Source: Brienomyrus brachyistius (Eukaryota > Chordata > Actinopteri > Osteoglossiformes > Mormyridae). From it: DNA of 64,000 nt. Within the stretch, counting starts at the first letter, position 1, and every line of letters starts with the position of its first letter. Shown here piece by piece: positions 1 to 45,999 of the stretch. The position numbers and the translations under genes were made by a program. The notes beneath the pieces were generated by a model. The model was given only the letters and a program-made list of their open reading frames with translations. It was not told the origin of the DNA and searched no databases. The stretch lies in NCBI RefSeq assembly GCF_023856365.1, contig NC_064548.1:10217642-10281641 (forward strand). The letters run 5' to 3'.

Positions 1-1561
1 TGTGACCTCTAGCACTGACCCCAACCCACCCTTGATGCCTCAAACAGCATTTGTCCTGTGGGAGGAAGTCTGTGTTGTTTTTAGATCCCTTCTTCAGATA
101 ACGCTTACTCCTTCCCACACACTTTGTGAAGGCACCTGATAGGCAGCCTGTCTCTCCCCTGCATGTGATTGGATGGGAGCTTTGGGAGTGCCCCTCCCCC
201 TGATATTTGTCTTTCCCAGTCATTCTCATTGTGTCTCAAAGAAGTAAAAACATCCAGTCCCAATCTTCCCTTAGTTTTCTTTTAATCAGTTTGTTCTCAA
301 AGCGACATTCTCTGAGTCTCCCAGGACTGCAGCCATGTCTCTCCAAAAAAGGTATCCTTTTATTCATGGCAGGAACACAAAAAACCAACTGCAAACACAG
401 GTTCAAGACTAAAAGAGATCTTTAATATGATTTAGTTTTTTTAGACTAAGTTGAAAACAGCCATTTTCTGTGACAGAATTCATGGCTTTCCATCACATCT
501 AAAAGCCCTTTTATCTGATGAATCAGATGTATAGCATTACATGTACTTCTCTTAGGGAGACTTTTGTCCAAAGTAAGGTATAAGTGATGATCAGAAAGCA
601 GAGCTGCCCAGTGTCCCTAGAGCAATCGGGGTGAAGAGCCTTGCTCCAAGGCCCAACAGCGACATCACTCTCCCAGCCATAGGATTAGAACTAGCGACCT
701 TCTGGCACAGAGTCCTAACCCAAAGAGCCACAATCAGAATGTCTGCAGTCATAACCTTTTGGGAAAACTGCAACGTGGCATTGAAGCTTCCTTGTGACAA
801 GACTGACAGCACCAAAGCAGAGCCCCGGTGTGAGATGCTGCAGCCATGCGATAAATAGCCTCACACCCTGGTGAGACAGTTCATCAGACTGGCTGCTTCC
901 TCTGTCTGAACGTCAGTCTGAGGTAGGCTCAGCAGTCTTGCTCTCTTGTTTTCCTGTGTCTTCAGAAAAGATGCATAATTCTGAGGCGTAGGTTTGGTTG
1001 CACCATTGGTAGTGACCAAATTGACCCTGAATGCCACACTCCTGTAAACACACATGATGCAACAAAATATTGGTAAGGATATCTCCCTAGCATCCTTCCT
1101 CAAATATAAACCCTGCATATCTGAAACAAGGGTGTTGCTAGAGATTTTGGTCCCCATGAAATGTGGATATCTGCTCATGTTATGCAATCGAAAAGTTAAG
1201 TTTGCGTTTTCTTCACACAGCAGTGTGTAGCAAGGCCCTGTCAACAAATACCCTGGCAGCGAATATCTAAAGATTCTGTGCTGTGTCCAAGACTGTCATT
1301 CAAAGCACAGCCGAGGAAGAGCTGAAAAGCTGTTTGCTGCTTGAAGAAAAATGCACAGCCTTTGTTTCCCAAACGAGCATGGTAAAATCACTGATGCGGA
1401 AAGTGTCTCACAAAGAGAACGTCAACGCAAGATAATGAGATACTACAACACACAACAGTCCCCAAAAGCAGCTTTAAGTCGAATGAAATTTTCCGAATGC
1501 CATTAATAAATTAAGAAAACCAACTACAATCCCGGCATTGTGGCTGTTTGTACATTTTATA
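1..1561. repeat. Segmental duplication, copy 1, left part
   Basis: Bases 30-430 match 20430-20750, bases 766-965 match about 20975-21150, and bases 1330-1561 match about 24270-24516, all in the same order and orientation. Identity looks about 75-90% with many indels. The copy is cut by the left edge of the window. A SINE fragment (600-740) interrupts it and is absent from the other copy. Bases 966-1330 have no clear partner. No gene is supported here; the open frame on the minus strand at 861-1247 has no recognisable domain. Confidence 0.85.
600..740 (-). mobile_element. tRNA-derived SINE fragment
   Basis: It contains GAGCAATCGGGGTGAAGAGC, CCAAGGCCCAACAGCGAC and a reversed degenerate B box (GGATTAGAACTAGCGACC). 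The same order appears at 32820 and 49640. It is missing from copy 2 of the duplication, so it inserted later. Confidence 0.65.
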
Positions 1562-1848
1562 CAAAATATAAGGATTTCATTGCTGAGCTAATTTTGAAAG
1601 TAAAGGTGTGAACAATGTGTTTTCTTTATGCTTTTCTTGTACTTTGCTTTTCTCTGACTTGTTGAATGTGGTCTTTGTGCTGCATTTTTGTTTATTCTCT
1701 CCTTCAGCGGGAATTTTCTCGTCCCCCTCGCTATTGCGAGCGCCAGACCAGGACACACACGTCGTTCAGCCGTAGGTTCGGCCCAATTTAGGCCCCATGA
1801 TTTTCTCTGCACGCCCGCTTTGTGATGCTGTCCATCACCCCTAACACC
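1562..1848. repeat. Hyper-conserved duplication block 1 (287 bp), copy 1
   Basis: Matches 24517-24803 over 287 bases with no indel and only two mismatches (1581 and 1797), about 99.3%. Flanking parts of the same duplication are far more diverged. The minus strand holds an open frame (1588-1863) rich in Lys and Arg that is also open in the other copy. One of the two mismatches changes its amino acid (Trp to Arg), so coding constraint is not shown. It lies about 2.4-2.7 kb downstream of the pepsinogen stop codon. Confidence 0.9.
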
Positions 1849-1976
1849 ATTTGAGAAAGGCATTCATTGTTGGTGCTTGTGGCGACTCTGAACTTTCATA
1901 TTATTTTTCAGATTTTTCATCAATAGGACAGTCATTAATTGGTAAGGCAGTTTGTGTGAAACAAGAGTACGGTCAT

Positions 1977-2155
1977 GTTTTCATTACTGGGGGAATGTTT
2001 CCCCTGAGGAGGTAATAAAATCCCCCCTTGACATGCCGCATTTGCTCTGAATACACGCAGGGGGAAGAAGCCTTTGTTTCTCTTTCTGTGAGAGAATCAT
2101 GACAGGCCGAGGCAAATCGTCTCAGTTATTGGTATTTCTCTTCCCTTGTTTTTAC
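1977..2155. repeat. Hyper-conserved duplication block 2 (179 bp), copy 1
   Basis: Matches 25041-25219 over 179 bases with no indel and two mismatches. It is separated from block 1 by 128 bases here and by 237 poorly matching bases in the other copy. No protein frame or known RNA fold was recognised. Confidence 0.9.
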
Positions 2156-2366
2156 CTTTTCAAAGCAGTGCAACTCCACCCAGCCCAGAGAGACCCCAGA
2201 CACATTTCACATTTTTGCTCCCTCTCAGCTCCCAGCCTACCTGTACCAGGTATAAAGTTGCAAATTTGAATAGATTTTCTTGATTGACAGTCACTAATGT
2301 TAATGAACAGTTAATCTATCATCGTTTACTGACACCCCCCTCCACCTCCACATACACACACACATG

Positions 2367-2877
2367 ATTATATTCATATCCTTGTAGGGACTCTCCATTC
2401 ATTCCTATGGGCAAAGCCCTAATCCCATCTGTGACACCCTTAACCCCTACCCAGCACTAACCTTAATTATAAGTAACCAAACAAAATACAACACTGTAGA
2501 CATTCTGTTTCCTCCGGGTACTCCGGTTTCCCCCCACATGCTGAGGCTAATTGGAGTTGCTAAATTGCCCGTAGGTGTGCATGTGTGAGTGAATGGTGTG
2601 TGAGTGTGCCCTGCAATGGGCTGGCCCCCCATCCTGGGTTGATCCCTGCCTCATGCCCATTGGTTCTGGGATAGGCTCCGGACCCCCCGCGACCCAGTAG
2701 GATAAGCGGTTTGGAAAATGGATGGATGGATGGATGGATGTAGACATTCTTAGTCTTTTGATTGCAGTTACAGGTTTTTATAAAATAGTCCCCACAACAT
2801 AAAAAGAAACAGTTTTTATCTTATTGTGGGATCATTTGGTCCCCACAATGCAGTATACATATCACCCACAAAATACA
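2367..2877. mobile_element. CA-flanked MITE with nested retroposon
   Basis: The left end reads CATATCCTTGTAGGGACTC and the right end GGTCCCCACAATGCAGTATA, which are imperfect inverted repeats. The internal text (TCCATTCATTCCTATGGG, then AAGTAACCAAACAAAATACA) is shared with the elements at 37016-37268 and 37327-37590. CA-rich tracts lie on both sides. A retroposon at 2507-2738 splits it. Confidence 0.75.
2507..2738 (+). mobile_element. 5'-truncated GGAT-tailed retroposon with 12-bp target duplication
   Basis: Exact duplicates of TGTAGACATTCT flank it (2495-2506 and 2739-2750). The body starts mid-element at TTTCCTCCGGGTACTCC and ends in a (GGAT)n tail, matching the 3' half of the longer copy at 5010-5370. 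Truncation at the 5' end, a simple-repeat tail and a target duplication together indicate LINE-style reverse transcription at the target site. Confidence 0.85.
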
Positions 2878-3062
2878 CGCACACATACACACACACGCAC
2901 GCACAGTCAATATTGACATCAAATACACAAGTAGTACATTCCTCAATAAAGGATTTTATTGAACAAATACCTTTTCCATTCAGCTTTTAAGCATCTTTAA
3001 ACATATTAACAATGATCGCGTTTCTGTCGGTATAGGCATAATTTGTCAATGGCTTTATGTGA

Positions 3063-3271
3063 TACACTCTCAGATAAAAGGGTAACAAAAATGTACCTTT
3101 GCTTGTCACTGGGACTGTACCCTCAATGGTCTGCCACTTGTACCCTTAGCTGTAGGTAATTGTACATTTGGGATGTTCCTCAGAGTCTGTATCTCAAAAG
3201 GTACAATTATAAAGGTATAGCCCCACTGACAAGCAAAGGTACAGAATTTTACCCTTTTTTCTGAGAGTGTA
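3063..3271. mobile_element. Tc1/mariner-type MITE
   Basis: The ends are TACACTCTCAG and CTGAGAGTGTA, followed inward by matching AAAGGGTAA and TTACCCTTT. The inverted repeats are bounded by TA, the target of Tc1/mariner transposases. At 209 bp with no coding capacity it is nonautonomous. Elements with these ends are familiar from many fish genomes. Confidence 0.8.
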
Positions 3272-3413
3272 TTTTGCTTGTGAAGATTAATGTAATTGGC
3301 TGTTTGGGCGCCATACCCATGTTGATATACAGTCAAAACCTAATGGCCATTAAATGAAACAATTGTCTGGACGGTAACTTTCCAAAGCCTCTGCACATAT
3401 CAAGGTAAGCCTA

Positions 3414-3620
3414 CTATTTGTTTTTATTCAAAAAGATCAACATATCTACATGCTCTGGTGTGAGGCGCATTTGCAACTTGTTAGCTGTAAGTCCAGCTGC
3501 TGAAAATACCCATTCAGCTACCAGGTCTCAGGTAGGTAGCCTCGGTAATCTTTCTGTGCTGATATTCCACCAATCGGTGGGACTTGTGTCTAGGGACATC
3601 TCCCCAGAAATGTAAAACCA
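3414..3620 (-). mobile_element. hAT transposase C-terminal fragment
   Basis: The minus strand ends EWVFSAAGLTANKLQMRL, then TPEHVDMLIFLNKNK and stop. This is the signature of the hAT transposase C-terminal dimerisation domain. Upstream, in a shifted frame, TDWWNISTERLPRLPT matches the preceding WW...P part of the same domain. A stop or frameshift separates the two, and the rest of the transposase was not found, so it is a relic. Confidence 0.85.
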
Positions 3621-3977
3621 CACCGATTCAGATGGTTCACACCATCGCACGAGTATAAATGCTCTCAACGGAGCAGGCCACTTGTACAGGCTGTGGTATA
3701 GGCTGCATATTATGACTTATATGGTACATAAATCAGCTTAAATGGTGAAAAGAATAGGCCTACTCGCTTTAATGAAAATGCACAAGACTTTAATCTATTC
3801 ATTTAGTTTGGAACACTTGATCAACTATATTCTTCGCAAATAATCGTTAAATTAATCATTACCAACCCTAGCCAGGTATTTGATGTTCTTGATTCATTGG
3901 TTCAGGTGTGCTGGGAGCTGGGAGGTAGCAGTATGTAGATTTACTGGGGGTCTCCGAGGCTTGGGTTTAGGAACACT

Positions 3978-4050
3978 GGGTTTAAAGGATGGGTTTAAAA
4001 GATGGGTTTAAAGGATGGGTTTAAAGGATGGGTTTAAAGGATGGGTTTCC
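3978..4050. repeat. 13-bp tandem repeat (GGGTTTAAAGGAT)
   Basis: Five head-to-tail units (3978-4042), one with a single change, plus a partial sixth, beginning at the edge where copy 1 of the duplication resumes matching copy 2. Copy 2 has only about one unit (near 25224), so the expansion happened after the duplication. Confidence 0.9.
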
Positions 4051-4179
4051 ACCCTTTCACTTCATCTTCTACAGAGACTGTCACTCCAGGGTTATTTATA
4101 TTTAAGCCAAAGAAATTATATTTGTTAAAAAAAAACAACAGATAAATAAAACTGCAATGGACAGAATTTTGTTTGATGA

Positions 4180-4199
4180 TTTAATCAAGAAGTTTTAAT
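4180..4199 (-). promoter_or_regulatory. Poly(A) signal variants (ATTAAA) of pepsinogen gene
   Basis: Two ATTAAA hexamers on the minus strand (4194-4199 and 4180-4185) lie 32-51 bases past the stop codon. ATTAAA is the commonest variant of AATAAA. No perfect AATAAA was seen on this strand between 4100 and 4230. Confidence 0.5.
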
Positions 4200-4230
4200 G
4201 ATGAAGGACAAGTTTTCACCCTGATGGAGT

Positions 4231-7330
<3,100 letters not shown>

Positions 7331-7375
7331 CGTGGTTCTCTGGAACTATCCTGAGAAATCAGCAGGCTGAAAGCC

Positions 7376-7381
7376 TTTATA
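7376..7381 (-). promoter_or_regulatory. TATA box of pepsinogen gene
   Basis: The minus strand reads GCTATAAAGG here, 46-51 bases before the ATG. This spacing puts transcription start about 20 bases upstream of the start codon, giving the short 5' leader usual for pepsinogen genes. In the duplicated pseudogene the same place reads GATAAA, so the box is lost there. Confidence 0.75.
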
Positions 7382-7439
7382 GCTTTTTGGAATCGCAGAA
7401 CCTGAGGTCTTTGCTTTTTCTCTAAGATAAGATAATATA

Positions 7440-9277: not shown

Positions 9278-9366
9278 TAAATTACCTGTCAGATTACCAT
9301 CTTAAATATGCACCATTTTGGTTGATCAGATCCACATTGTAGGCTCCACCAGTGCTGTACTGCATT
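9278..9366 (-). pseudogene. Pepsinogen exon 2 fragment (third copy)
   Basis: The minus strand encodes QYSTGGAYNVDLINQN, matching QYSAGGAYDVDLINQN from exon 2 of the intact gene. Similarity continues about 25 bases into the following intron. The donor GTAAGT is changed to GCATAT and similarity stops abruptly at 9366. It is on the same strand as the gene and about 2 kb upstream of it, so it looks like a remnant of a further tandem pepsinogen copy. Confidence 0.82.
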
Positions 9367-16117: not shown

Positions 16118-17292
16118 TGTGTGTGTCTGTGTCTATATGTATGTGTTTATAGAACATGAACTGAAGATGATGTTCTTGAACATTCTGTGTAGCACATTTA
16201 GATACATCCTTGCCAAATGAGGCCAATGCTGCCCCCTGTCTTTTTTCCTCCTCCTGCTGTGGTTTGCAGAGCTGAAAATACTCCATTACAGGTCTGGAAT
16301 TTCTAATAGATTTAGGCGCCTTAAGCAGGCCTTAAGCATCAGTAATAACAATCCACTCTATCACCCCACTGACTATAACATGCATAAAAAAATCTACCTC
16401 TCATTACTCTAATGACGATTTAAAACATGTGTAGGCCTAATATTTATGTACCCGAGAACGTATATTTTCTTTCTCTCTGATCTCTGGCCCATTGTTATTT
16501 AATTAGAACCTAGAGATGTTTCACAACGTTTCATTACATTATACATAACGTGCATAACGTGTATACGGTATCGGCACTCAAAACAGCCACGGGATAGAAT
16601 ATAAGCTCCCCCTTTAATGAAAAATAACTTTATTAAAAAACATACTTTTGACAGATTAGTCATTAAAAGTGGTGATTTCCACAATCTCTTTTGACAGGTT
16701 TCCGACCACCTGCTGAAATCAATGTCACGCATAAGGAAGTTGTATTGATCACACTCCAAGATTTATTGTTCAGCTATGCTGGGGGAAATCCACGAAACCG
16801 CAGCGCTGCACATAATGTGCGCCTTTCCTAATGGATGCGGAGCGGAGCCAGGTTGAGGGAGGGAGAACTGAGAGGAGTTGAATTACATGCACATCCCAGA
16901 TTTCAAACACGTTTTTTCTACTCTACTCTAAAATCCTGCCTCTTCCTGAACAGCGGGGAGGGGAGCCAAGTCCGAAATTATGCATGTAAATTTGCTGGAA
17001 AAGGGGGAAAAACTTGGCCATGGTCATGGTCAGCAGATCTGAGAGATAGGACACGGAGATTATTTTTAATCCTTAATTCTAAGAGTAATAGGATTTTAAA
17101 TGCAGGTCCGTGTTGAATATCCTCTTCGGGGACTTTGAGAGGGGCTTTTCTGCTCAGCCTTACCTGCGTGTGCGGAGGAGGGGTTGCGCTTTTCATATTG
17201 CGCATCTTTCGTATGGGACACCGAAGGAAACAGGACTTTTCCCCTCCCTGGATCTTGCTATACTGAATGGGTAAACAACACAATCTGCCTGG

Positions 17293-17397
17293 ATGGGATG
17301 TACAGTGAGTTTCATTTGCTGTGAAGACGATCTGCTGCAGATGCCTTACGACCGACATGAGGAGAAAAAGAAAGAGGAAATGAGGCTCCTGCCCAAG
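17293..17397 (+). CDS. Candidate first coding exon A (N-terminal, possibly acylated)
   Basis: An ATG opens 35 codons beginning MGCTVSFICCEDDLLQMPYD and ending EEMRLLPK, followed by AAG|gtaacc, a plausible donor at codon phase 0. Gly2 and Cys3, plus Cys9-Cys10, suit N-myristoylation and palmitoylation (inference). A charged stretch rich in Glu and Lys follows. The surrounding 16.8-17.5 kb is low in repeats and richer in CpG than the DNA around it, as for a promoter. The ATG context is weak (T at -3). I do not recognise the gene. It may be an alternative first exon of the same plus-strand gene as the exons at 45568 and 53650, or of a different one. Confidence 0.45.
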
Positions 17398-17859
17398 GTA
17401 ACCAAAGGGGGTCCGAGACTTCGGCTTCGAAACAGTGTTTGTAAACTTCACAGGACGCGCTGCCGTTTTGACAACCGATTCAAAGGCCAAATCAGGCAAA
17501 TCTTATTCTGTTTACTGGAACGTTTACTAAACCCGACCGCTGTAGATCAAACACGTTTTACCTCAAAGCATTTCCCAAGAAATGTTTTTTTTTCTCACGA
17601 GAGACGTTTGGAGCTGTGTTTCGGTGCCCATGCTGTCATTTGAACATGAATCAAAACGCAAAAATGACTCATTTCACCATTAAACTAAACTCACTTTCCA
17701 CTTTAGACGACCGAAACGCGACGTCTGTGGGATGTTTTACAAGCTACTTGAAATCACTGACATGTCAAAGTAACAGCATGAAAGGAAAGCATGCCAATGC
17801 CAGCTATTGCGACACTAAGACACTAATCCCATCATTTTCAAATTATATTTACTTGTAAT

Positions 17860-19550
17860 GAAAACAGGCTAATGTTATTTTGTATAATTTTATATACATA
17901 TATTACGAGCGATCGCTTCATTTAATTCGGTTAAATCAGTGTATAGAGACAGATTTAACACCATTTGAAAACTCACATCGAAATCTCCGTTAAAGATTGT
18001 TCGTTTTCATGCAACTGAATAATATTCCCCAGAACGTTCCCAAACTCCTGTCTTGCACTTAATTAGGACAGTATTGGATGGATTTGCGTGTTGCCTTTAA
18101 ATCCAGTGGGCGTGTGTTTGTGGCTTCATAGTGGCCGCAGTTTGTCTGAACTTCATTACTCTGAAGCTTGGTAATTCATGCAGTCTGTTGCTTTTTCCTG
18201 GTGCTGTCTCCTCATTAGTCATGTAATCCAATTTTGCACTAATTTCCCGTTAATCCCATATCGTTTAGCCAAACGCTACCAAAGAATTAATGAACCCCCA
18301 AAGCAATCATTTAACTATAACTTCATTACAGATTGTTAAATGTCATCTGTATTAAAACAAACAAACAAACAAACGTAAGCTCTGTTTTAAACTTTACGTT
18401 TAGTTTCTTCAACTGCCAAAGGTGAGCTAAATTGTCCCAAATGAGTAATGAAGCTGGATTAAGTGCATTAAAGGGGAAATGACGAAAAATAAGTGTGCCT
18501 TAAAGTCACGAGTCACTTGGTTATACGTCCCAGTGCCAGGAAAAATGTCTGTTACATCTGGCTTGGAGGAATATTAATTTAAGCCTGGGTGGCTTCTTGT
18601 TAATATAATGCTGTGGTGTGTGGGTTACATTTGGAAAAGCTGGACATACCATTATAGCTATAAATGCAATGCCCTATGGCAGATATTTAAAAGTTGGGAG
18701 GATTGTATTGATGGTCATGTTATTAGTGTGTGCACCCACTCGGTCTGTCTTGCTAAAGTACCTGCTTGTGGTTAGTTTGTGTGTGTGTGTGTGTATGTGT
18801 GTGTGTGTTTGGTTGCTTCAGGGACCCCAATGAGTGATTAAGATGGTCATATAGTCCACCAGAGTGATTAGGACCCTATATTCGCAATACAGATTTGCAG
18901 GGCGTTTAATAGACCGATAGCCCACTTTTCCCGAATGTCTGACAGAGAATGTCCATTTGTGCTTGACAAATGTGAGAGGCAGACGGCTAAGACACAACTT
19001 TTCCCGGGTGTGAGATGGATTATAAAAGAATGTGTTCTGGATTAATGTTTCTATGTTTTGACACCTTTGTGTTCAGAGATTAACTTGAAAGATATACCAC
19101 AACAGAGCCAGTGACTATGCAAACAGTTATATTTAAGGAGAAACTAAGAATTCAGGAGAGGAGAAGGATTTTAGACACAAAATACTTTACGCTTTTCTTC
19201 GAAATGCAAGAATGACATAGAAATGATCTCTTGGTCTAATAACTTGTTTGGATATATACTCGCCGTTCCACAGAAGACATAAAGTCATTCTGGGTTGTTA
19301 CATAAAAGGTGTGATCTGGTCGTTGTTCCGTAATCTGGTGGTCCGTAATCCCTGTTATGTGTTAACGAGTCGTGCCGCAGTGAATGGGCGGGCTGATGCC
19401 CTGTCTATTCACGGATGCTTAGCACGCCCTCATCAGTCAGAGACTCGGGGCACTTTTACCGAGGGCCCCCAAATCTTCTAAGCAAACAGGCATTTCCTTT
19501 CATCTCTTTGATGGGAATAAATCAGGCTGAAGGCACAGTAATGGGAGGGG
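17860..19550. other. Non-repetitive DNA downstream of candidate exon A
   Basis: If the exon at 17293 is real, this is its first intron. It is unusually free of mobile elements. Only small simple repeats were seen: (AAAC)n near 18355 and (TG)n near 18778-18808. Confidence 0.4.
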
Positions 19551-20404
19551 AAAGGTGGGTGGGGGGGGGGGGGGGGGTGAGGAATTCCTGAGATTTAAAA
19601 TCCAGGGACAACTGCTACCTGCTAGATAGCCCACAGGTTTCTTGGGGATTGGTCTTATGTGTGCTTCATGAGCAAGAAAAATGGTGTGGGGTGGGGGTGC
19701 GGGCGGGGGGGGGGTTCCTCCTAAGTACTTAACAGTCCCCCGTGGTATGATGCCGCCCGGCTGCTTGAATGGGACGGAACTTGGCATTCTGTGCACTTCC
19801 GACTCCGAGCTTGCTGAGGCGAAGTCATTAATGACAGTTTCTCAAGTGTTATTATGGTGATTTGTTCTTGCTGGCCCTTCAGTTTACCAGCCCTGGAACA
19901 CATGCATGAGGAGCTTTAGCTGGAGCGATCCAGGTAACGCAAGTGAGCTCGCTGGAGGCCGAACTGGCAAGTCTCTGATGAACGGCCGTTGTTCTAGAGT
20001 CCTGCTAGTGTTTCGTCAATGATCTGTCAGCGATCTTATTCTAAAACCTGAAAAATGTTGAGAATGCTCCTTTGTTTCTCTGAAAACTATTCAGTTGGCG
20101 ACATGCTTATGATTAATATATTAGCATACAGTGACGATTTGGTCAACCTTGTGTTCTCCGTCTGGTTCTAGTTCATAATGCAAGCATTTGAAGAGCACAT
20201 TGCTTTGTTCGGTACTTTGGGGGTCACTTACTTACTTACTTACTGATGCCCATTTACAGAAGCAGACATTCCCAATGTAACATTCTACTCTTCCGCCATT
20301 GAAGTCTTGCACCAGCAGAGAAAGTTCCGTGGTTGATGTCTCAGTGCTGAGGTACAAGGCTGGGCTATAGCATTTCAAGGTGATCTCCTAAGTGCCGTTA
20401 TCGC

Positions 20405-21150
20405 CACCACAGCGCTCACTCCTCATCCCTCCCCCAATGCAGCATTTGTTCTATGGGACGATCGGCCTGTGCTGTTTTTAGATCCCATGGTGAGATAAGA
20501 CTTGCTCCTCCCCGCACTCTTTGTGCAGGCTCATGAAAGGCCGCCAGTCCCTCCGCATGTATGTCAGGGGATGGGATCTCGGGAGTGCCTCTGCTTTTAC
20601 TGCAGCTCGCTCCCAGGGAATGCAAGACAGATTACTGGGCCAGAACAAGGGGGTAACGTCCAGCTCTTAAGCATCTCAACCCTCTTTTAATCTGTGTCTT
20701 TTTACTCATGGTAGGAAAGTAAAAAAACAAATGCATTCACAGATCTTATAGTTTACACGCTTACTGGAATTGTTTAGTTACAAAAACAGAATGCAGCCGT
20801 ATTCTGACTCAAAAATGAAAGCCTGAGCTCATCAGTGATAAGGTTCACGGATTTGCTTGACTCCCTAACATTAACCAGTGTCCTCTTTGAATTGATGGCT
20901 GAGGTGGTAAGTTCTAGAATGTTTGCTGGCGCAGTTCTTTATAGAAGCTGTTGTACAGCAAGCTGTTGCACAACTGCAACGTGGCATTGAAGCTTCCTTG
21001 TGACAAGGCTGACAGCACCACAGCAGAGCCCCGGTGTGAGATGCTGCAACCATGTGATAAATAACCTCACACCCTGGTGAGACAGACTGGCTGCTCCCTC
21101 TGTGTGAACATAAGCACTCTTGCAGTCTTGTTTTCCTGTGTCTGAAAAGG
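20405..21150. repeat. Segmental duplication, copy 2, left part
   Basis: Matches 1-965 in order, most clearly 20977-21060 against 768-851. The segment after it (21150-24265) has no partner in copy 1. It contains the hAT element at 22311 and other repeats, so the duplicate was expanded by insertion. Confidence 0.85.
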
Positions 21151-21904
21151 TGAGACACAGACACTCTCTGTCAGGCAGGATCTATGTAAATATAACAGTG
21201 AAAATAGCAATAATTGACTTCCACGTAGCTTTCACCTGAACAGTATCAAATAGCCAACAAATCATACCAGAATACTAAAACCATATACTGGATGATTAAT
21301 TATTGCGCATATACATTGATAATTTTGATTCCGTTTTATTGTACGTATCGTTGCTGCCCGATGGAAAAACACCGATCCCCAAAAATCTATTTTTCAGGAG
21401 TGTGAAAAAAGCAGTTCTCTCTCAAACTACGTTACAAAATAAACCTAAGACAACTTACTGAGACCTTCTTGGCACTGCAAATAGAGACCTATCTTGACAT
21501 AGCCATCTGAAATAGTTTGTTTTAAATGGACTTGCATGGATCGTTGTCAATGACGCAAATATGTCAGTGTCAAGAAGATGCAGACCGATCTCGCTTTATA
21601 TTCACAGTTAACAATGGTGTTAGCTAGCTAGCTATCAACGTTGAGTTGTACAAATTAGCGATAGAATGTAATCCATGCATACAAATGTTAACCAATACAA
21701 AAACAAATATTACTTAAATAGATCACTTCATAAAACATCTATTCATTGGTCAATAGATGTCAAATGTTATCAGTAGACGGGAGAATACGTGTATTCCTTC
21801 TATAGTAAAAAGTCGCAATCGTCAACCCAGGTTTCATGAGGAATGCATTATATCCTAAACATTAATCAACCTAATGTCCGTTTTATTATTAATTGGTCCT
21901 GTCT

Positions 21905-22140
21905 AGTTGATGTTGATTCCTGGTGACCTCATTGGCTCTAGTTCTCCGGTTTGGCCTGGCTTTTGTCTCAGCTTTCAGGCTTCCCAAAGGCATGTTCATG
22001 TCGTGGTGATTGAGTCCATCCAGTCTGTTGGTGGTCGTCCACTTCCTTTCCTGCCATCAGTGTCTACAAGCATTATTGTCTTTTCCAGTGAACTGTAACT
22101 TCTCATAATATGGCCCAAATTAAATTATACTTTGGATGTT
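21905..22140. repeat. Dispersed repeat with coding-like text
   Basis: GGTGACCTCATTGGCTC, CTTTTGTCTCAGCTTTCAGG and CTTCTCATAATATGGCCC recall a dispersed vertebrate repeat, but I cannot name the family. It lies in the part of copy 2 that copy 1 lacks. Confidence 0.35.
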
Positions 22141-22310
22141 TTTCTCTCATTCATCCTTTTGTATATTGCACATTCCAGCTAGCGATTCTTTGCAGCTTTT
22201 CTTTGCTCTGTTTTTCTTTCCGGCATGGTGACGTCGAGCAGCTGGACAGCCAAAAGGCTTTGGTCCAAGTGCAACATAAACACTAGCTAATTCTGAAGCA
22301 TCTTTTGGCC

Positions 22311-23287
22311 CAGGGGTGTCAATCTCATTTAAGTTAACGGGCCATATTGGACTCATTGAGCAATTTATGTGTAGCAGGCTCATTACACATTAGCCACACC
22401 TTTAGCATTAGCCTTTTCTTCTTTATGTTTGAGGCCGCGATGGACTGGGAACAAAAATGAGCCCCTTTGAATATTCTTCATTGGAATTCATTTCATTTTC
22501 CCCATATGGGCTCCCTTCACAAATTTGTTTTTGAACAAAGTTCCTCAGTTTCGGTTCTGCAGGGTTCTGCAGAATCCAACACAGAATCCAACACAGTTTG
22601 TATATTTCCCTGTTCAGACATACCACTAAACCTGGTAATTAGGTGATTATGATGTTTAAGTGGGGAAATCTGCAAACTGTGCTGGATTCTGGCCTTCCAG
22701 GACTGGAATTTGAGAAATCCTGGTTTAGAATGTCTGCTGCTTATCGAAATGTGATTTCCACTATAATGTCAGATCAAAAATTCAAAAAAAAAAATAAAAA
22801 AAATCTGGTATCATACATAATTGCGTAAGTGAACTAATGCCTGCTGTGTCGGATTAAAGTGGTTCTATAGCCGCCATTTGGTGCAATTTCTATGGTTAAT
22901 CACAGTAAGGTATTCGGCAAGTAGTAATGAATACAGAAAACAGGCGAGAGACGAAACCTTGTCCACACTCGCATTCCTTGTCAGGTTTATGTTGGCAGAC
23001 GCTTGCCATTTGTCACGCCACACGGTTATGCTTTGAGCACGCATGTCTTACCAGAGGAGCTCGGTTTACGGTAGCTGGCTTTCATACGTTGCTGGTCTCC
23101 TGACCGTGATTAAAATGCTGTGGCTGACGCTTCTGTCCCTCCCGTGATTTCCTTGACTTGAGTTGCAAGCCATTGTATTTTTCAGCACTGTCAGTCTGAT
23201 AATGGCACCCAAAAGTGCCCCCCCCCAACACATGTAATGAGACAGTGGCCCATATTTGACCCTTGGGCCTTGAGTTTGACATCAGTG
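22311..23287. mobile_element. hAT-type element, 977 bp, with 8-bp target duplication
   Basis: The ends are CAGGGGTGTCAATCTCA and GAGTTTGACATCAGTG, inverted repeats of the form common in hAT/Charlie elements (CAGxGGTGTCAAACTC). They are bordered by TTTTGGCC and CTTTGGCC, a 7/8 matching target duplication. Near the right end, ATATTTGACCCTTGGGCCTTG matches the usual hAT subterminal text. No transposase frame was seen, so it is nonautonomous. It contains a nested foldback at about 22580-22690. Confidence 0.85.
22580..22690. repeat. Foldback repeat inside the hAT element
   Basis: The left arm AATCCAACACAGTTTGTATA and right arm TGCAAACTGTGCTGGATT are inverted repeats about 60 bases apart, with TTTCCC and GGGGAAA also paired. 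It may be a smaller MITE that inserted within the hAT element. Confidence 0.65.
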
Positions 23288-23889
23288 CTTTGGCCATAAC
23301 TTGGAACCATGTTCTGGTGTGTCCATCCATAAGGGTTTCTTGCTAAAGTATAGCAGTGGTTTACCATCACCTAGTCCTATAGCTCCTCTGTCTGATCTGT
23401 AATAGGATTCAAATGACGTTTTTGCTACTGGTGACCTTGGCAGATGTTCAAAACTCCAGGCATCATAGTTCTTCCCCGACACATGCAGTCCTTGTCACCC
23501 AAACAAGGCACTATATAGTGAGCACTGCAACTGCAGATTTGATCAGATTAAATCTTTCTGAAGAACTACTAAAGGTTTAGGCTTCTTGCGTGTTTTGTAG
23601 ATCTCTCAGTCTGGTCCTGTCTGGAACAGATAAGAACTGCTCAGGACCATTCACCTTAACCGGGCAAATGAATGTAGTTCTACTGGCTGTTCATTTTCTC
23701 AGATGTTACTTTACACTGTACGGTGGTTTCAAACATTTCAAACAATATTCTTTAGATTTCTTCCCTCTTAGGGGATGAGTTTAGCTCTCTGTAGCTCCTC
23801 TGTACCTGCTCCTACCTGACTGTGGGGACTCCTTGTCCAGTGTAGTAAACCCGGCCTTTTCCCTTGCTTCTGTAATGTGTCTCTATAAC

Positions 23890-23948
23890 ATGCCAGGACC
23901 CCCTGCGACCCAGTAGGACAAGCTGTTTGGAAAATGGATGGATGGATG
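23890..23948 (+). mobile_element. 3' end of GGAT-tailed retroposon
   Basis: CCCTGCGACCCAGTAGGACA, then TTTGGAAAATGGATGG, is the last 60 bases of the element seen whole at 5010-5370. Strong 5' truncation. Confidence 0.8.
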
Positions 23949-24516
23949 TTTATGTTGCCCGTGCATACCTGTTGGTAGACGTACAAAGAGCATTTGGTTT
24001 ACACTTTGATGGATTGTGCGTATAGAGATGTATTCAGGGAAGAGATCATTTGACCCATGCATTTGAAACCGTAGTGTGTAAAATCCATAAAGGATTTTGT
24101 AATCTGCTGAACCTTGTGGCCTTGCATTGGGTTGCTTGTGTACATCCACCACTCGTTGGGCACGCGGATAAACCGGTAGCAACTGGCCAAACATTTGTAG
24201 TATGGACAAAAATCATCATTCACAGAGCCAAGGGAGAGCGGAGAAGATCTCAGGGGGGCTAAGGGCTGCTGGAGGAAAATGCACTGATTTTTCTTTCCCA
24301 GAGAAGGAAACAGTGAAAGGAAATCACTGATGCAGAAAGAGTCTCACAAAGAGAATGTCAATACGAGATAATAAGAGTTACAAAAACACACAATAGTCGC
24401 ATAGAACAGCTTTAATTTGGTTGGCACTCTTCTGGATGAAAAATTTTCTGAATGGCATTAATAAATTAACAAAACTAAGTTCAATCCCGGCATTGTGGCT
24501 GTATGTACAAATTATT

Positions 24517-24803
24517 CAAAATATAAGGATTTCATCGCTGAGCTAATTTTGAAAGTAAAGGTGTGAACAATGTGTTTTCTTTATGCTTTTCTTGTACTTT
24601 GCTTTTCTCTGACTTGTTGAATGTGGTCTTTGTGCTGCATTTTTGTTTATTCTCTCCTTCAGCGGGAATTTTCTCGTCCCCCTCGCTATTGCGAGCGCCA
24701 GACCAGGACACACACGTCGTTCAGCCGTAGGTTCGGCCCAATTTAGGCCCCTTGATTTTCTCTGCACGCCCGCTTTGTGATGCTGTCCATCACCCCTAAC
24801 ACC
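24517..24803. repeat. Hyper-conserved duplication block 1 (287 bp), copy 2
   Basis: Partner of 1562-1848, located about 0.6-0.9 kb downstream of the pepsinogen pseudogene stop codon. Similarity drops sharply after CTAACACC at the right end and loosens left of 24517. Confidence 0.9.
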
Positions 24804-25040
24804 TCGTTGTGAGTGTTTGGTGGCTGTCATGTGTGTGCAGAACAACGTAACGCTTGCATAGTGTCCTTTTTCATCGGAGAAAAGCATTCATTATTGTAGC
24901 TTCTGGTTCTCTGTATTTTTAAATTAATTTTGACATTATATTTACTTGTTTTCGAATTAAAGGGGAAGTCAATAATTAGGGGCACAATTTGTGTGGGACA
25001 AGAGCATGGTCGTGTTTTGCTATACAGGGCATGCGATCGT

Positions 25041-25219
25041 GTTTTCATTACTGGGAGAATGTTTCCCCTGAGGAGGTAATAAAATCCCCCCTTGACATGC
25101 CGCATTTGCTCTGAATACACGCAGGGGAAAGAAGCCTTTGTTTCTCTTTCTGTGAGAGAATCATGACAGGCCGAGGCAAATCGTCTCAGTTATTGGTATT
25201 TCTCTTCCCTTGTTTTTAC
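25041..25219. repeat. Hyper-conserved duplication block 2 (179 bp), copy 2
   Basis: Partner of 1977-2155. Here it runs almost directly into the 3' flank of the pseudogene. In copy 1, about 1.87 kb of transposon-rich DNA separates it from the gene, so that DNA was inserted after the duplication or lost here. Confidence 0.9.
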
Positions 25220-26395
25220 TCTTTTAAAGGATGGGTTTCCACACTTCCACTTCATCTTCTGGAGACACTGTCATTCCAGAGGTATTTACACTTGACGGCC
25301 ACGTCTTAACAGACAAAGTCGAAGAAATCGGATTTGTAAAAAAAAAAACAAAACACAAAATTGCAACGGAAGTACGTTTGTTTGATGTTAATGATCAAGA
25401 CATGAGTGCTCATCCTGACAGTGGCTAAGCTGGTATAGCAAAGCCCACCCGGGCATTTCTTTGGTCACACGCAGAGTAGATCTGCCTGAGGAAATCATCT
25501 CCCAGAATCCAGTGGGGCATCCCATTCTTATCTTCAATGCGATTTGTCTCAGTTCCACTTAAGCCATTGCTTTTGAAGTCGTGTTCCCATAAATGCAACC
25601 ACGAGCTGGCAGATTAACCACCAAAAGCTTGAGTCATTGGATTGACGGTAATAACCAAGTGACAAACCACTGGCCCCAAGACAAAATTTGTCCGGGAAGG
25701 TTGGCGTGATTGTTCCTCACTGAACAGTCTTAGTAAGAATAAAAAGCTCCAGGTACAGGTGGAGTATATTTATGACAATGGTCAGGCTGCTCACATGGTG
25801 GTAATTAAAGGAGTTTTGGAAACAGGATCTTCAGTAGTCAAATCGTTATTTAGGATTTGTGCAAAGAACTTTGCATCACCATTCCCATTACTTTGGGCTC
25901 CAAGTATATATTGTACCACTTCTGTGTGTTGTTTGGGGCGAATCAGAAGTGTGGTGCCTATATCCACAATGGCAGGAAAGCCAGGATCAGACCAGTCCGT
26001 AATCTCATGGTCCACCTTAAATGTCCACCTTAAAACTGAAGCATAGCGGCTGAGGAACTTCTTCTCATTCAGGAATAAACAGCATTGCTGTGCAATAGAC
26101 AAATCTGATACAGAATTCTGTCATTATATGTTTAATTGGTTAAATATATACATACAGTACTGTGCCTGTCAAAGTGTGTCAGCTTAGCCGTTTCAGAACC
26201 TCTGCTAAAATCATCCTAGTGTTTGCAGTGACCGTCCAGTGCAGCCATGTATTGTTTGACTTGGCCACTAGCACACCTCATACAGTTGGTCAATCTCTCA
26301 CTGACTTTTTAAACCAATTTATTTCATTATTTAATTGAAATTTTGATGAAATTTAACAAAATCATGGAACGGCTGAGGTGCCCCTGCGGAGAAGT

Positions 26396-26440
26396 ATATA
26401 TATAATAGTATATATATATATATATATTATAATAGTAATA
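26396..26440. repeat. TA-rich simple repeat in pseudogene intron
   Basis: Imperfect (TA)n flanked by ATAATAGTA repeats. Part of the enlarged intron 6 of the pseudogene (about 1.1 kb against 0.6 kb in the intact gene). Confidence 0.85.
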
Positions 26441-27223
26441 TGCTTTAGTATTACTATCCTGTTAATTTATCTTGTGCCAGGAACACATGACAAAGCTACA
26501 AATTGGTAAAGGAAAGCCCACAAAGCCCACAAACCTGTGAGAGTTTCTGACCCTTGGAGCTGCCCTGTTTGAACAAATAGTGAGAAAAGCCTCATTTGTG
26601 GTAACTTAACTTGGTCATGTTTCAAATCACTTACGCTTCCTGTACTTATTCGTTACAGTTTTTTGCTGTATGGTGCATTTAGTGTATTGAGTTTTCTAAC
26701 TGACATGCACATGCTCTGTAATGAGTAAATCCTTTGTTCAGAAACTTTCAAGTGGACCCGTTATTATAAAGTATGAAATAGTTGCACCTATGAACGTTCA
26801 CTTCAAACACACTTCATTTTTACTGTTGTCTTCACTAGTATTTCCCAGTCTGGTCTTCCAAATTTGGACTTACTGGCAGGGAGCAAAAAGCTGTGTCCTC
26901 GAGGAGAGTGATCTTCCCCATTTCCGTGATAATGAGGAGTCAGGGATTTGTAGAGTATTCTTCATTGACACCTTTGTGCTGTACTCCAGAGTATGTGATG
27001 CTTTTACGAGGGACATTTTTAATTCAGAATTTATTGTGCGTGTTTTGTTGAGTGGACGATTCCTTCTGTCAGTCATTCCGCTGCTTCCAGGACTCACTCA
27101 TCAATCACCAGCTCCCAGGGGCTGTCCTCAAGCTCTCCGCTTGCTTAGCTAGCTAGCATACACAGGCCATCCTGGATGATTGTATTCATAATGGTCTATT
27201 TATCGGGCATGACGGTCAATCAG

Positions 27224-27244
27224 CCCCCCCCCCCCCCCCCCCCC
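27224..27244. repeat. Poly-C run at a deletion junction
   Basis: 21 consecutive C exactly where the pseudogene passes from exon 5 sequence to exon 1 sequence. About 1.5 kb present in the intact gene is missing here. Confidence 0.9.
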
Positions 27245-27699
27245 GAGCTACACACGCCAAGCCGAGAATGAGACACCTCCTCACGGTTCTCCAAACCTCA
27301 GAGATCAGCAGACTGATCAGCAACTTTTATCGCTGCTTGGAATCATAAAACCTCTTGGCTACATTAACATGCATTCTACTTCAGCTTTATCATTTTTGAA
27401 TAGATATGTACGACTATGGAAAGTACAGTAATAACCATTGCCCTGCTGCCAAGTAATTGAAAAGCCTTTTTGTACTAGATGCCTTGAGGGTGCTAAAGGC
27501 CTAATCTTTTATAACTTAGCATAAAAGAATGTTACCTGCACTTTTAGATGAGTGACTAATTTAATCACTGCCTTTGCACCTAAAGTTGATATTCATGTGT
27601 ACACCAGAATTCGACGTCAAACTGAAGGAAATCAGTTGCACAGAAATGCTCCATTCAATTCCTGTGGAGTAATACATAAAAAAAGCAGTAGATTAAGGA

Positions 27700-31905: not shown

Positions 31906-31918
31906 GAAGAGCATCCTT

Positions 31919-32265
31919 TGTGTGCAGTGCCATGGCAGGCCTGGCCTGGGGAGTGATGCCGCTCACCATAGGCATCTATGTCCAGTGCCATGGCAAACCC
32001 GACCCAGGGAGCGACAATGCACGTTGTAGGCCCTCTGTATACAGCGCCGTGGCAGGCCTGGCCTGGGGAGTGATGCCGCTCACCATAGGCATCTATGTCC
32101 AGTGCTGTGGCAGGCCTGGCCTGGTAGCGACACCGCTTGCCATAGGCCTCTGAGTCCAGTACTATGGCAGGTCTGGCCTGGGGAGCGACACCACTCACCA
32201 TAGGGCTCTGTGTCCAATGCTGTGGCAGGCCCAGCTTGGGGAGTGACACCGCTCGCTGTAATGAG
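31919..32265. repeat. 58-bp minisatellite, about six units
   Basis: Units of 57-60 bases contain GGCAGGCCTGGCCTGGGGAG, GCGACACCGCTC and CCATAGGCATCTATGTCC with about 10-25% divergence. Because units are not multiples of three, reading frames through it shift from unit to unit. The frames open across it (for example AGLAWGVMPLTIGIYVQC) are by-products, not genes. Confidence 0.92.
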
Positions 32266-34875: not shown

Positions 34876-35018
34876 AAAAGAAAAAGAAAAGTCAGGATGA
34901 ATCCCTCAAAGTGAGCACTTTTTTTTGGGCCTTTCCCTTCTAACAATGGGAGTTCAGGAAATATGTCAGAACCAGGCCCCGGTTGCCAGACCCTCCCTCT
35001 TGGAGGGGGTCACTGCAG

Positions 35019-35165
35019 ATCTCCGGGAAGGCGGGGGCCAGACTGGTCCGGACGAGCTCGACGAGCAGGCACCGCATCTTCTGCATTGCCATCAGGCTGT
35101 CTGGGTCAGGAGGGACCGACCTGAACGAGGTGGCTGCCTCAGACTCGGCGATGTCCCTCTGGCTG
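35019..35165 (+). CDS. Possible internal exon, strand uncertain
   Basis: On the plus strand a cactgcag acceptor and a CTG|gtgagt donor bound exactly 49 open codons, phase 0 at both ends (ISGKAGARLVRTSS to SAMSLWL), with very GC-rich third positions. The phase would fit splicing from the ATG exon at 17293. The minus strand is also open and reads as well (RDIAESEAATSF, then DSLMAMQKMRCLLVELVRTS) but has weaker splice sites. The two readings cannot be separated by eye, and neither is a family I recognise. Confidence 0.28.
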
Positions 35166-35199
35166 GTGAGTGCAGCTCTGTGACGCATCAGCGCCGTGC

Positions 35200-36840
35200 G
35201 GAGAAACACGGGTGCGAGGCAGGGGGAGTAGCAGCCCGGGCCAGCCACAGCGGCGCCTCTTATAATCCCCCCAGAAAAGAGTGACCGGACCAGAGTGAAA
35301 GTGATTTGTGAGCGAATGGTGTCACGCGGCTACTTGAAACATTTCGCCTCATTTTTGATGAAACTCCCGATGTACGCAGCTAAATAATTTATCCCATCGC
35401 TGCCATGATATTAAAATATTAAAAAGAAAAAGCATTGCTCAAACTAATTTGTAGAAAATGGCGCTTTTTAAATGTTTCATAAGACAATGTTTATTTTAGA
35501 GTTACACGTTGCAGTTTTAATGAAAGTGCACGTCAGGCTGCATGGTGCTTTGTGCATGCGCGGGCAGCCTTGTGCCGTAACACAGCTTTCTGAGCGATTC
35601 TCACCCCAACATGCTAGCGAGTTTTTTTTTTTTTTTTTTTGTGAAACCGTCAGCAGTAACAGTGTAAGGCCTCAAGCAAATGTTGACTTTCTCGGCAGAA
35701 CATTATATCCGTTGTGTCCTCTGTGTTATGACAATGAAACCTATTTCCACGGAGACACCATCCGTTACTCAGGGTGAAATGTTTCATTGCTGAAGCTTAG
35801 TTAATAAGCTTATTAGAAGCAAGGCTGTCGAGGTAGCCTACAGGGATCTATTTTATGCCAAAAGGAAGGGCATTTTAAGGGGGCCTTCGTCTTGTAAAGA
35901 CAGTTGAACTTGTCTTTTATTGCACCGCCTACGTGTGTAATTATACTTTTCTGCAAGAGCTTAAATGATGCAATTATAGTAATTATAAGACAAAAGTCGT
36001 GTATTTCTGATTTCTGAGAATGTACTTACACATGTCTCAACGATGCAAATTACGTTCATTTAATTGTCACTAATAACATAACTACGGAATTCAAACGTGA
36101 AAGCGGTAGTTACCGCGTTGTATTGCTGTTATTCTCAGTGATTTGCAGGGATATTTGAGGCAAATACTCAGTGACCACAGAATTTTTCTTCGGTAATTCT
36201 GTGCTGCTTGCAGGTGCTGAGTAGCATGACTTAAGACTTTTGTAAACACAAAGGTAGCACAGTGCTGGACATGGATAATTTAAAATATTTATTTAGCAGA
36301 TGAATTTATTGAAAGTGACATACGATTGCGGGGGGCGAGGTCATACAGCCCTCCTGCCGAGCCACACACTGCCCCCAGTTTTATTTATGAGAAGGTTCTG
36401 TGAATTTTAGCACTGAAAAGATGGACATCTTGATATGTCTCTTTAAGCTCTGAGTTGTGGCCTCTGAAGCAGATAACCTGGTTTCTTTACCACCTGAGCC
36501 ATAGACGAAATGGACAAACGGGGTAAAACAACAAACATTTAATGTTTTGGAGGCTTGTTCTTGGTCTTTTCCCCTGTTTCATTTCAGCCTTGAACGTCAA
36601 ATAAATCCATTACCGATGCCTCGTCAGTTTGGGAGGGGCGAAGACACGCATACGATGCCATTCGTGCGTGTTGCGTGTTCGCAGGCCGCTCGAAGGAGAT
36701 CGCCTTTTTGCAGTTCTGCTCCCAGCCGACTGTACTGTGATGAGAGGGACTGGATCCCAGCTGCATGATCCCAGTTCCCTGCTGTGGGATGCACGTTCCT
36801 TTGACTACTCTGCCTTAAATTAGCCAGTGGTAATTCTTGA
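35200..36840. other. Non-coding, no gene seen
   Basis: AT-rich, mostly unique DNA. No exon with matching splice sites and no mobile element family was recognised. Confidence 0.4.
35622..35640. repeat. Poly-T run (19)
   Basis: A perfect T homopolymer. No retroposon body was recognised on either side. Confidence 0.9.
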
Positions 36841-43800: not shown

Positions 43801-44030
43801 CCCCTAACCTCTCCTTTCTTCCAGAGCTGGGAATTTGGCGATGGAACAAATCTTACTGGAGGTGGGCCACAATAGCGGCCACTCTCCCGTCCTTCAATCT
43901 GTGCCGCATCCCACAGAAAATCATAAGAGTTAAGTGCAGTTCCGCAGGCTTAAAAATCATCCTTCTGGCAATTTCTCCAGTACCGCTGAGCATGCTGGCA
44001 TGTCATTCTTATCTTTTATCCATCTGATAT
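37870..44030. other. Long non-coding stretch with G/C runs
   Basis: It contains the foldback element at 40777, G runs at 39205-39222 and 41643-41655, and a (TG)n tract at about 43230-43262. The longest open frame (212 codons, minus, 42708-43346) runs through the TG repeat and is not supported. A GAG|gtaagt site at 39197 lacks a convincing exon. Confidence 0.45.
40777..40938. mobile_element. Foldback MITE, copy 2
   Basis: Same arms (ACAAATCCAGACCAAG), centre (AAGAGTCACAGCCACAGAG) and overall length as the element at 11820, with roughly 85% identity. Two dispersed copies show it is a transposed family and not a chance palindrome. Confidence 0.85.
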
Positions 44031-44039
44031 TCTAGATTG

Positions 44040-44690
44040 AGATTAAGTGTGAGACATTTGAGCGTCTCCCCGAGGAGAAGCGGCCGTGAATAACAGTGTT
44101 TGGAGGCTCTGACATACAGCTGTACAAGCCATTGTTTTCATTGCTTGAAATATTAGCCTGTTGCATTGTGAACGTGATTTTCAGCGACTCCCGTAGGTGC
44201 TATTAACCTGAGCATTTGAACCGTCATAAAGAACATCACCGAGAGAAGAATGTAAGAATGCTGTAAGCTTTGATTAATTTGGGGGTTTGTTTCGCGCATC
44301 TGTAACTGGCTGAACTCTGCATCAACAACATATAATAATAGGCGGCCATTACTGAGACCCATTAAGGGAAGACACTGCGCCGTCTCTTTTTTTTTTCCTT
44401 TTAGGTCAATATAAACATTAAGCTAATTTTCATTACAGCTCGGGTCGATGTGTGTGACAGCTCTGATTAAAGATGTCTCATGTCTCTGTGAAGTGATTTC
44501 CAGCACGACTAATCGCCACATGCCGCAGAGATTTGGTATTTCGAGCACCGCTCGGTTTGCATTTGCTATTCAGCTTGCGGGAGAACATAATGATTTGGTC
44601 AATATCTGTCTACATTGACCGCAGGGACCATTATTCTTAATGTGTGCTCGGTTCAGTGCTCTCCGGGGAAGGGGAGCAATCGGCCATTGG
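44040..44690. other. Repeat-free segment before CpG island
   Basis: Complex, balanced-composition DNA with no repeats or long frames, directly upstream of the CpG island. This is the sort of sequence in which conserved non-coding enhancers are found, but conservation cannot be judged from one genome. Confidence 0.3.
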
Positions 44691-44739
44691 ATGCTACGTT
44701 ACGATTGTCTGACAGTCTCTATTAGATTCCCTCCATCTC

Positions 44740-45860
44740 CGTGTGGAGCGCGCGCCGTCTCGGGTAATTAGCATTCCGCAGCGTGAGCGCGTCCCCCCCC
44801 CCCCCTTTTTTTTTATAGTCCCGTTCTGTGAGAGGCGCGGGATGCGCGCTCGCCGGCAGCGCGGACGAGACTCCCGCTGAAGCGTGGCGAGTCTGCAGCA
44901 AGTGCCGCGCGGTAATTGCGTTGGCACAGGGGTGCCGATCCGGGCTGCGGATGCGTCCCGCGCTGCCGGCGACCCAGTTACGCGCGGTATGATCGCGGCG
45001 CGGAGCCGGCGGCACTCACCTGGCACCCGCCTGCAGAGGCTCCTGCCGATTCTGCGGTCTGAAACCGCTTTGTCCCCCCCCCCCCCCGTTACCCCCTCCC
45101 GCCCTGCATGCTCTCTACCCCGAGTGGCTATCGTACTGTTCCTCCCATTCTGACTTCCCCCACACCCCCTCCTCTTCATCGCACGCGCCAGCCCCCCCCC
45201 CTCCTCATACACACACACACACACACACGCAGCTCCCGCTCCACCTCCTCTGGTACTGCAGCATCCAGCTTCCGAGCAGCGAGCAGCAAGGAGGCGTAGG
45301 ATTGCGAGCCGCCGGACGGCCAGCGGGCTGACCGGCGCTTAGCCACGTGTCGGGGGATCCCGGCGGCGGCAGCAGAGGCGCTCCAAGGGATGATTGACGC
45401 CCCGAGTGAGAAGAACGCTTCTCTGTGAAAAAAAGCCGGGGGGGTGGAGGGGTGGGGGGGTCCAGTTTCGGACGCTGTGCCGCATGCCTCAGGGGGAGGG
45501 GACATTAGCTACTGCTCCGTAGGACAGATCCGGTGGCCTTTGGTGCCGGTCCGGCGGGGAGGTTGCGATGGCCAGGCTCACCTGGTGTCTCGCTGCTGTC
45601 GTCAGCTGGGGCAAGTTCTTCTTCTCCTGCTTCTTCCCGCTGAGGGCCACCAGGAGGGACCAGGTAGGTGCCGTGTCCAAGCCGTCTCCCACGCGTGTCC
45701 GCACCGGGTCACCTTGCGTGTCCGCGGTAGTTCGGCTAAGCCCCCCTCTTTCCCACAAGCTTCCCCAGCTTGCTGATTTCCCCCCTGCCCCTTGCCCGTC
45801 CTCATGCTTTTCGCAGGTGTGTGTTAAAGGTCAGTCACATGACCTTGCTCAACCTCCCGC
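44740..45860. promoter_or_regulatory. CpG island around candidate first exon B
   Basis: Dense CpG dinucleotides and very high GC stand out from the surrounding AT-rich DNA (examples around 44880-45060 and 45300-45400). This is the classic signature of a vertebrate housekeeping or developmental promoter. It includes C runs at 44793-44805 and 45074-45087 and a short CA tract near 45208-45230. Transcription from the plus strand would supply the leader of the exon starting at 45568. Confidence 0.7.
45568..45663 (+). CDS. Candidate first coding exon B in CpG island
   Basis: 32 codons beginning MARLTWCLAAVVSWGKFFFS and ending PLRATRRDQ, then CAG|gtaggt, a strong donor at phase 0. The ATG has G at -3 and +4, a good vertebrate context. 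A hydrophobic core with cysteines precedes basic residues, fitting a signal peptide, signal anchor or palmitoylated N-terminus. It lies in a CpG island with a GC-rich leader. Two short upstream frames (45390-45428, MIDAPSEKNASL; 45484-45522, MPQGEGTLATAP) could dampen translation. No downstream exon is visible in the window, so the first intron would exceed 18 kb. Gene not recognised. Confidence 0.55.
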
Positions 45861-45999
45861 CTCCGTGCTTCACGTACTCGGGATCGGTGCGGTTTCGAGA
45901 TTCGCGCTGCGTTTCGCTTGTGAGCCGACTTGCGCCCAGCCCGTAACTCTGTCCGGCACATTATTATAAATCGGTTTTCAATGCCTCTTCGGTGTCCAA

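Follow-up and report, generated by a model that had tools for sequence, protein, structure and literature searches.

The 64-kb stretch of DNA analysed here (the window) contains a colinear duplication in the same orientation, which can be traced piecewise from position 2 to 7403 (copy A) and from 20397 to 27353 (copy B). Each copy carries a gastricsin-like protease gene or its remains, and on one side of it lie two noncoding blocks that are nearly identical between the copies, together with further segments of intermediate conservation (Table 1). The offset from A to B varies from about 20 to 23 kb because each copy has gained or lost DNA: copy B is longer by about 2.7 kb between the third conserved island and the left flank of block 1, and copy A is longer by about 1.9 kb between block 2 and the gene, dispersed repeats included.

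Table 1. Features of copies A and B of the duplication (positions in the window)
Feature	Position	Strand	Details
Block 1, copy A	1562-1848		2 mismatches in 287 against 24517-24803, no indels
Block 1, copy B	24517-24803		Partner of 1562-1848
Block 2, copy A	1977-2155		2 mismatches in 179 against 25041-25219, no indels
Block 2, copy B	25041-25219		Partner of 1977-2155
Third conserved island, copy A	753-973		15 differences in 193 aligned sites, 6 indel events, against 20960-21152
Third conserved island, copy B	20960-21152		Partner of 753-973
Left flank of block 1, intermediate conservation	1248-1561		80%; 62 differences in 310 sites, 17 indel events
Diverged spacer between the blocks	1849-1976		76%; 30 differences in 127 sites, 8 indel events
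Intact gastricsin-like protease gene, copy A	4231-7330	-	Coding span, exons read by eye; Asp domain
Decayed relative of the protease gene, copy B	25223-27353	-	Alignment pieces; partial Asp match; DIG for DTG

The spliced product of the copy A gene has 378 aa and is 100% identical to 'gastricsin-like [Brienomyrus brachyistius]' (P0001), a match that points to this mormyrid, most likely a weakly electric fish, as the source of the DNA. Its relatives were taken from the best 120 of 6667 matches. The Paramormyrops record differs from it at 14 of 309 aligned residues, counted from MSYFG on, with 11 gap columns, and the start of that record looks like a faulty gene model. The other close relatives among the matches listed are, by name, from tarpon, gar, herring-like fishes, characins and catfishes, and at least two different proteins of the gastricsin-like kind (P0008, P0031) occur in Scleropages. 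The original prediction that the linked pepsinogen copy has decayed heavily holds for copy B, of which fragments are left with a single partial Asp match (34.1 bits, cut-off 19.9, profile positions 193-313 of 315) and in which the second catalytic DTG has become DIG; copy A is intact. Two copy B fragments, when compared, were about equidistant from most of nine relatives. A 77 bp segment at 9289-9365, which is 83% identical to 6981-7057, where the second protease exon ends, is probably what is left of an additional protease copy.

Realignment confirmed the presence of two near-identical noncoding blocks in a diverged duplication, and the positions, lengths and mismatch counts given for them originally were all exact, as was the statement that they contain no indels. 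Block 1 differs between A and B at 1581 (T/C) and 1797 (A/T), an identity of 99.3%, and block 2 at 1992 and 2064 (both G/A), an identity of 98.9%. The longest run identical in both copies is the 215 bp between these two sites of block 1 (1582-1796), where about 15 bp would be expected for 2100 sites at 65% identity. The residual divergence of the two blocks is compatible (P = 0.64, although the small number of differences makes the test weak). Most block edges are abrupt, and two of the four lie at or near length differences; the right edge of block 1 coincides with an A/B length difference of one gap event.

The rest of the duplication was compared by a chained alignment, with identities per segment computed without gap columns and with exon limits placed by hand. 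Three of the nine local matches (2631-2772, 5119-5266 and 5280-5384) were left out of the chain because of a position away from the main diagonal or a match to dispersed repeats. The identity profile so obtained excludes uniformly high identity over the duplication: the blocks differ at 4 of 466 sites and the rest of the chained alignment at 562 of 2115 (Fisher, 6e-49), with 94 indel events outside the blocks. The introns and 3′ flank of the gene, used as the baseline, are 65% identical (198 differences in 567 sites, JC distance 0.47), and the gene region as a whole (4033-7403) is 70% identical, its exonic part 73%. Segment 2-299 has an identity of 69%, not different from the baseline (P = 0.32), and the 29 sites to the right of block 2 have 62%. 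Two segments depart from the 65% baseline: the third island, with 92% identity and identical runs of 36 and 27 bp (Fisher, 6e-15), and the left flank of block 1, with an identical run of 21 bp (Fisher, 3e-06). Conservation is thus graded, from 99.3% and 98.9% through 92% to 80%, with 76% in the spacer and 65% in the introns and 3′ flank. The surrounding identity of 75-90% proposed earlier fits the near flanks; elsewhere it is too high, and the 92% island had gone unmentioned. At a neutral rate of 3-5e-9 substitutions per site per year, the JC distance of 0.47 puts the duplication very roughly at 45-80 million years ago; the neutral distance is probably larger than 0.47 because local alignment retains alignable DNA only. 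In the interval that separates the copy A gene from block 2, an inverted repeat at 3062-3272, with arms of about 60 bp that are 87% alike, is probably a small transposon.

None of the eight reading frames of the blocks that were searched (those of at least 45 codons) matched a Pfam family. Most of block 1 is covered by a 91-codon frame on the minus strand, which is open in A and also in B, where it runs to 114 codons. A search for protein relatives of this frame gave two candidates, neither of them at E up to 10, and the only A/B difference within the frame alters an amino acid (W/R). By these Pfam and protein searches the blocks are not protein coding, as is required of conserved noncoding elements. 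Rfam gave no family at gathering score anywhere in the 64-kb window. A relaxed scan of 1380-2170 returned two weak matches, both far below threshold: snoR25 at 1863-1928 (19.3 bits, gathering 50) and NPPA-AS1_3 at 2131-2164 (15.1 bits, gathering 55), the latter overlapping block 2. The fold z-scores for both strands of both blocks (-0.24, 0.37, -0.79 and -0.45) are ordinary. A structured RNA was therefore rejected, the blocks having neither a known family nor an unusually stable fold, and the suggestion that they might be an unrecognised RNA found no support (no Rfam family at gathering score, z from -0.79 to +0.37). That the blocks encode a structured RNA or a small protein is extremely improbable: an open frame over most of block 1 in both A and B would suit the latter, but it has no Pfam domain, no protein relative and a W/R change, and the folds and Rfam results speak against the former.

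Dispersed repeats are common in the window, which would suit a transposable or other repeat inserted twice. This origin is nevertheless very unlikely, since no third block copy was found in the 64-kb window at E 1e-10 and the two that exist occupy colinear positions inside a duplication with alignable flanks. An exact 25-base pattern from block 1 had no match in prokaryotic and viral contigs, where none would be expected, and four strings of 21-23 bases (one per block, both strands) had no occurrence in the literature. Nineteen motif patterns were counted in the blocks against their rate in 8-20 kb, the KLF pattern being miswritten so that it could not match. SOX occurred 4 times (0.66 expected), CDX/HOX13 twice (0.19) and TBX once (0.04), and most of the patterns had zero occurrences; with so many short patterns, nothing is concluded from these counts.

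The original prediction offered strong constraint or local gene conversion as explanations. These were the right alternatives, and the evidence leans to constrained cis-regulatory DNA: the blocks are probably duplicated cis-regulatory conserved noncoding elements, both copies of which would be held mainly by purifying selection. An old local duplication would have carried them together with the gastricsin-like protease gene, and purifying selection would then have held them nearly unchanged in both A and B while their surroundings and the B protease decayed. We infer that selection and not conversion holds the blocks, that regulatory proteins bind them and that both copies are functional. Judged from the alignment, the graded islands lean towards constraint over conversion, and so does the diverged spacer that separates the blocks, whose residual divergence is about equal. 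Several points count against constraint: redundant duplicates are expected to relax; abrupt edges, two of them at or near length differences, are given by conversion as well; the scanned part of the window has no target gene or developmental regulator; and the weak Rfam match at 2131-2164, below gathering score, overlaps block 2. Moreover, the slow change relative to nearby DNA holds between the A and B copies, where conversion would look alike. The earlier argument that such identity is unusual next to a dead gene is weaker than it seems, because long-range elements do not necessarily act on the adjacent gene and because copy A adjoins an intact gene; what would be unusual is the retention of both duplicates.

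Recent conversion alone, by which two A/B tracts would have homogenised otherwise neutral DNA, would account for near-identical and mostly abrupt-edged stretches in a diverged duplication and for their compatible residual divergence (2/287 and 2/179). However, the near-identity does not form one continuous tract. A single tract does not fit because the diverged spacer separates the two blocks; two tracts are possible, and at least two separate events would then have skipped the 127 aligned sites of the spacer. The 92% island and the 80% flank would also be left unexplained, the island not having been homogenised recently since it has substitutions and indels of its own. A background identity of about 65% is moreover low for initiating gene conversion, which speaks against conversion alone, and we consider this explanation unlikely. 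Constraint and conversion may also have acted together, selection keeping the similarity high enough for recurrent conversion to erase the last differences. Both blocks are about 99% identical, an extreme value for redundant copies, and this and the mostly abrupt edges, two at length differences, would fit such a combination; yet the pattern can be explained without it, and in the 92% island similarity alone brought no homogenisation. This combination is a tentative alternative, with the odds against it. A bolder form, in which an ultraconserved-class pair was locally duplicated within one regulatory landscape and is kept near letter-perfect by selection plus copy-to-copy repair, is conceivable but doubtful.

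To our knowledge, there is no agreed explanation for extremely conserved noncoding DNA. An ultraconserved element is one of at least 200 bp identical in human, mouse and rat; the 215-bp run found here is an identity between paralogues and not between species. In the portions consulted, PMC3826495 describes such elements as generally unrelated to each other except for whole-genome duplicates and as absent from segmental duplications, PMC4207606 reports them as depleted from segmental duplications, and PMC4008492 presents a model in which most duplicated elements are lost. The blocks resemble the vertebrate conserved noncoding and ultraconserved elements of the consulted part of PMC3826495 in being long static noncoding stretches among clustered, graded islands, but differ from them in lying in a local duplication and in that their conservation is known here between paralogues alone. 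As far as PMC1896008 was consulted, fish noncoding elements beside developmental gene pairs survived a genome duplication in duplicate, and 17-26% of element pairs per gene region evolved at unequal rates. Both duplicates of a noncoding element are likewise kept in the present case; unlike those whole-genome duplicates, the copies here belong to a single local duplication, in which about 23 kb separates them, and are about 99% identical. They also resemble a conversion tract between tandem duplicates, as near-identical, mostly abrupt-edged stretches in a diverged duplication, but differ from it in consisting of two stretches with a diverged spacer and in being accompanied by intermediate islands not recently homogenised. 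No comparable case was found among the listed titles and opening lines of abstracts on duplicated or homogenised noncoding elements.

If the constrained reading is true, the retention of a near-identical pair would be unusual, as the portions consulted of the papers cited above report that segmental duplications are depleted of such elements. Two local duplicates, both of them frozen, amid DNA that is mostly 65-80% identical would be an exception to the statement in the consulted part of PMC3826495, and an unusual variant of such elements if cross-species data confirm it. In the bolder form described above, the pair would lend itself to testing whether function alone maintains extreme conservation or copy comparison does so as well. 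Because both copies share one chromosome, a comparison of a few related fishes would separate constraint from conversion directly.

Of the known genes, the protease lies closest to the copy A blocks, at a distance of 2.1-2.7 kb, and it is possible that they control it; the copy B blocks have no working protease alongside. The target gene of the blocks may also lie outside the window. Six-frame Pfam scans of 29-64 kb found no family in any of 42 translations at E up to 0.1, a method that misses exons without a domain; it did find the protease in all three minus-strand frames of 4-9 kb and in one of three of 25-30 kb, and the Pfam scans of this kind covered both strands of 29-64 kb and the minus strand of 4-9 and 25-30 kb. 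Sequence pieces of FOXP, TFEB, FRS3, RAB7B, LAMTOR5, PROK1, KCNC, KCNA, SLC6 and ALX3 had no credible match, and the consulted portions of two pepsinogen synteny papers (PMC13389413 and PMC10991444) do not name the genes beside the present copy.

A codon-usage scan was not discriminating, as noncoding-looking stretches outscored the protease exons. Its best score fell at 34949-35257, in a CpG-rich kilobase (0.84) with no Pfam domain. Between the two copies, the kilobase at 17001-18000 has a CpG observed/expected ratio of 0.89 at a GC content of 0.42, with no gene recognised by eye. At 31915-32254 there is a tandem array of about six copies of a 58-bp unit (72% matches), which is open on the minus strand. 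The stretch at 44001-46000 is CpG-rich, with observed/expected ratios per kb of 1.13 and 0.78 and GC contents of 0.50 and 0.64, and has no Pfam domain around it; it may be the promoter of some gene.
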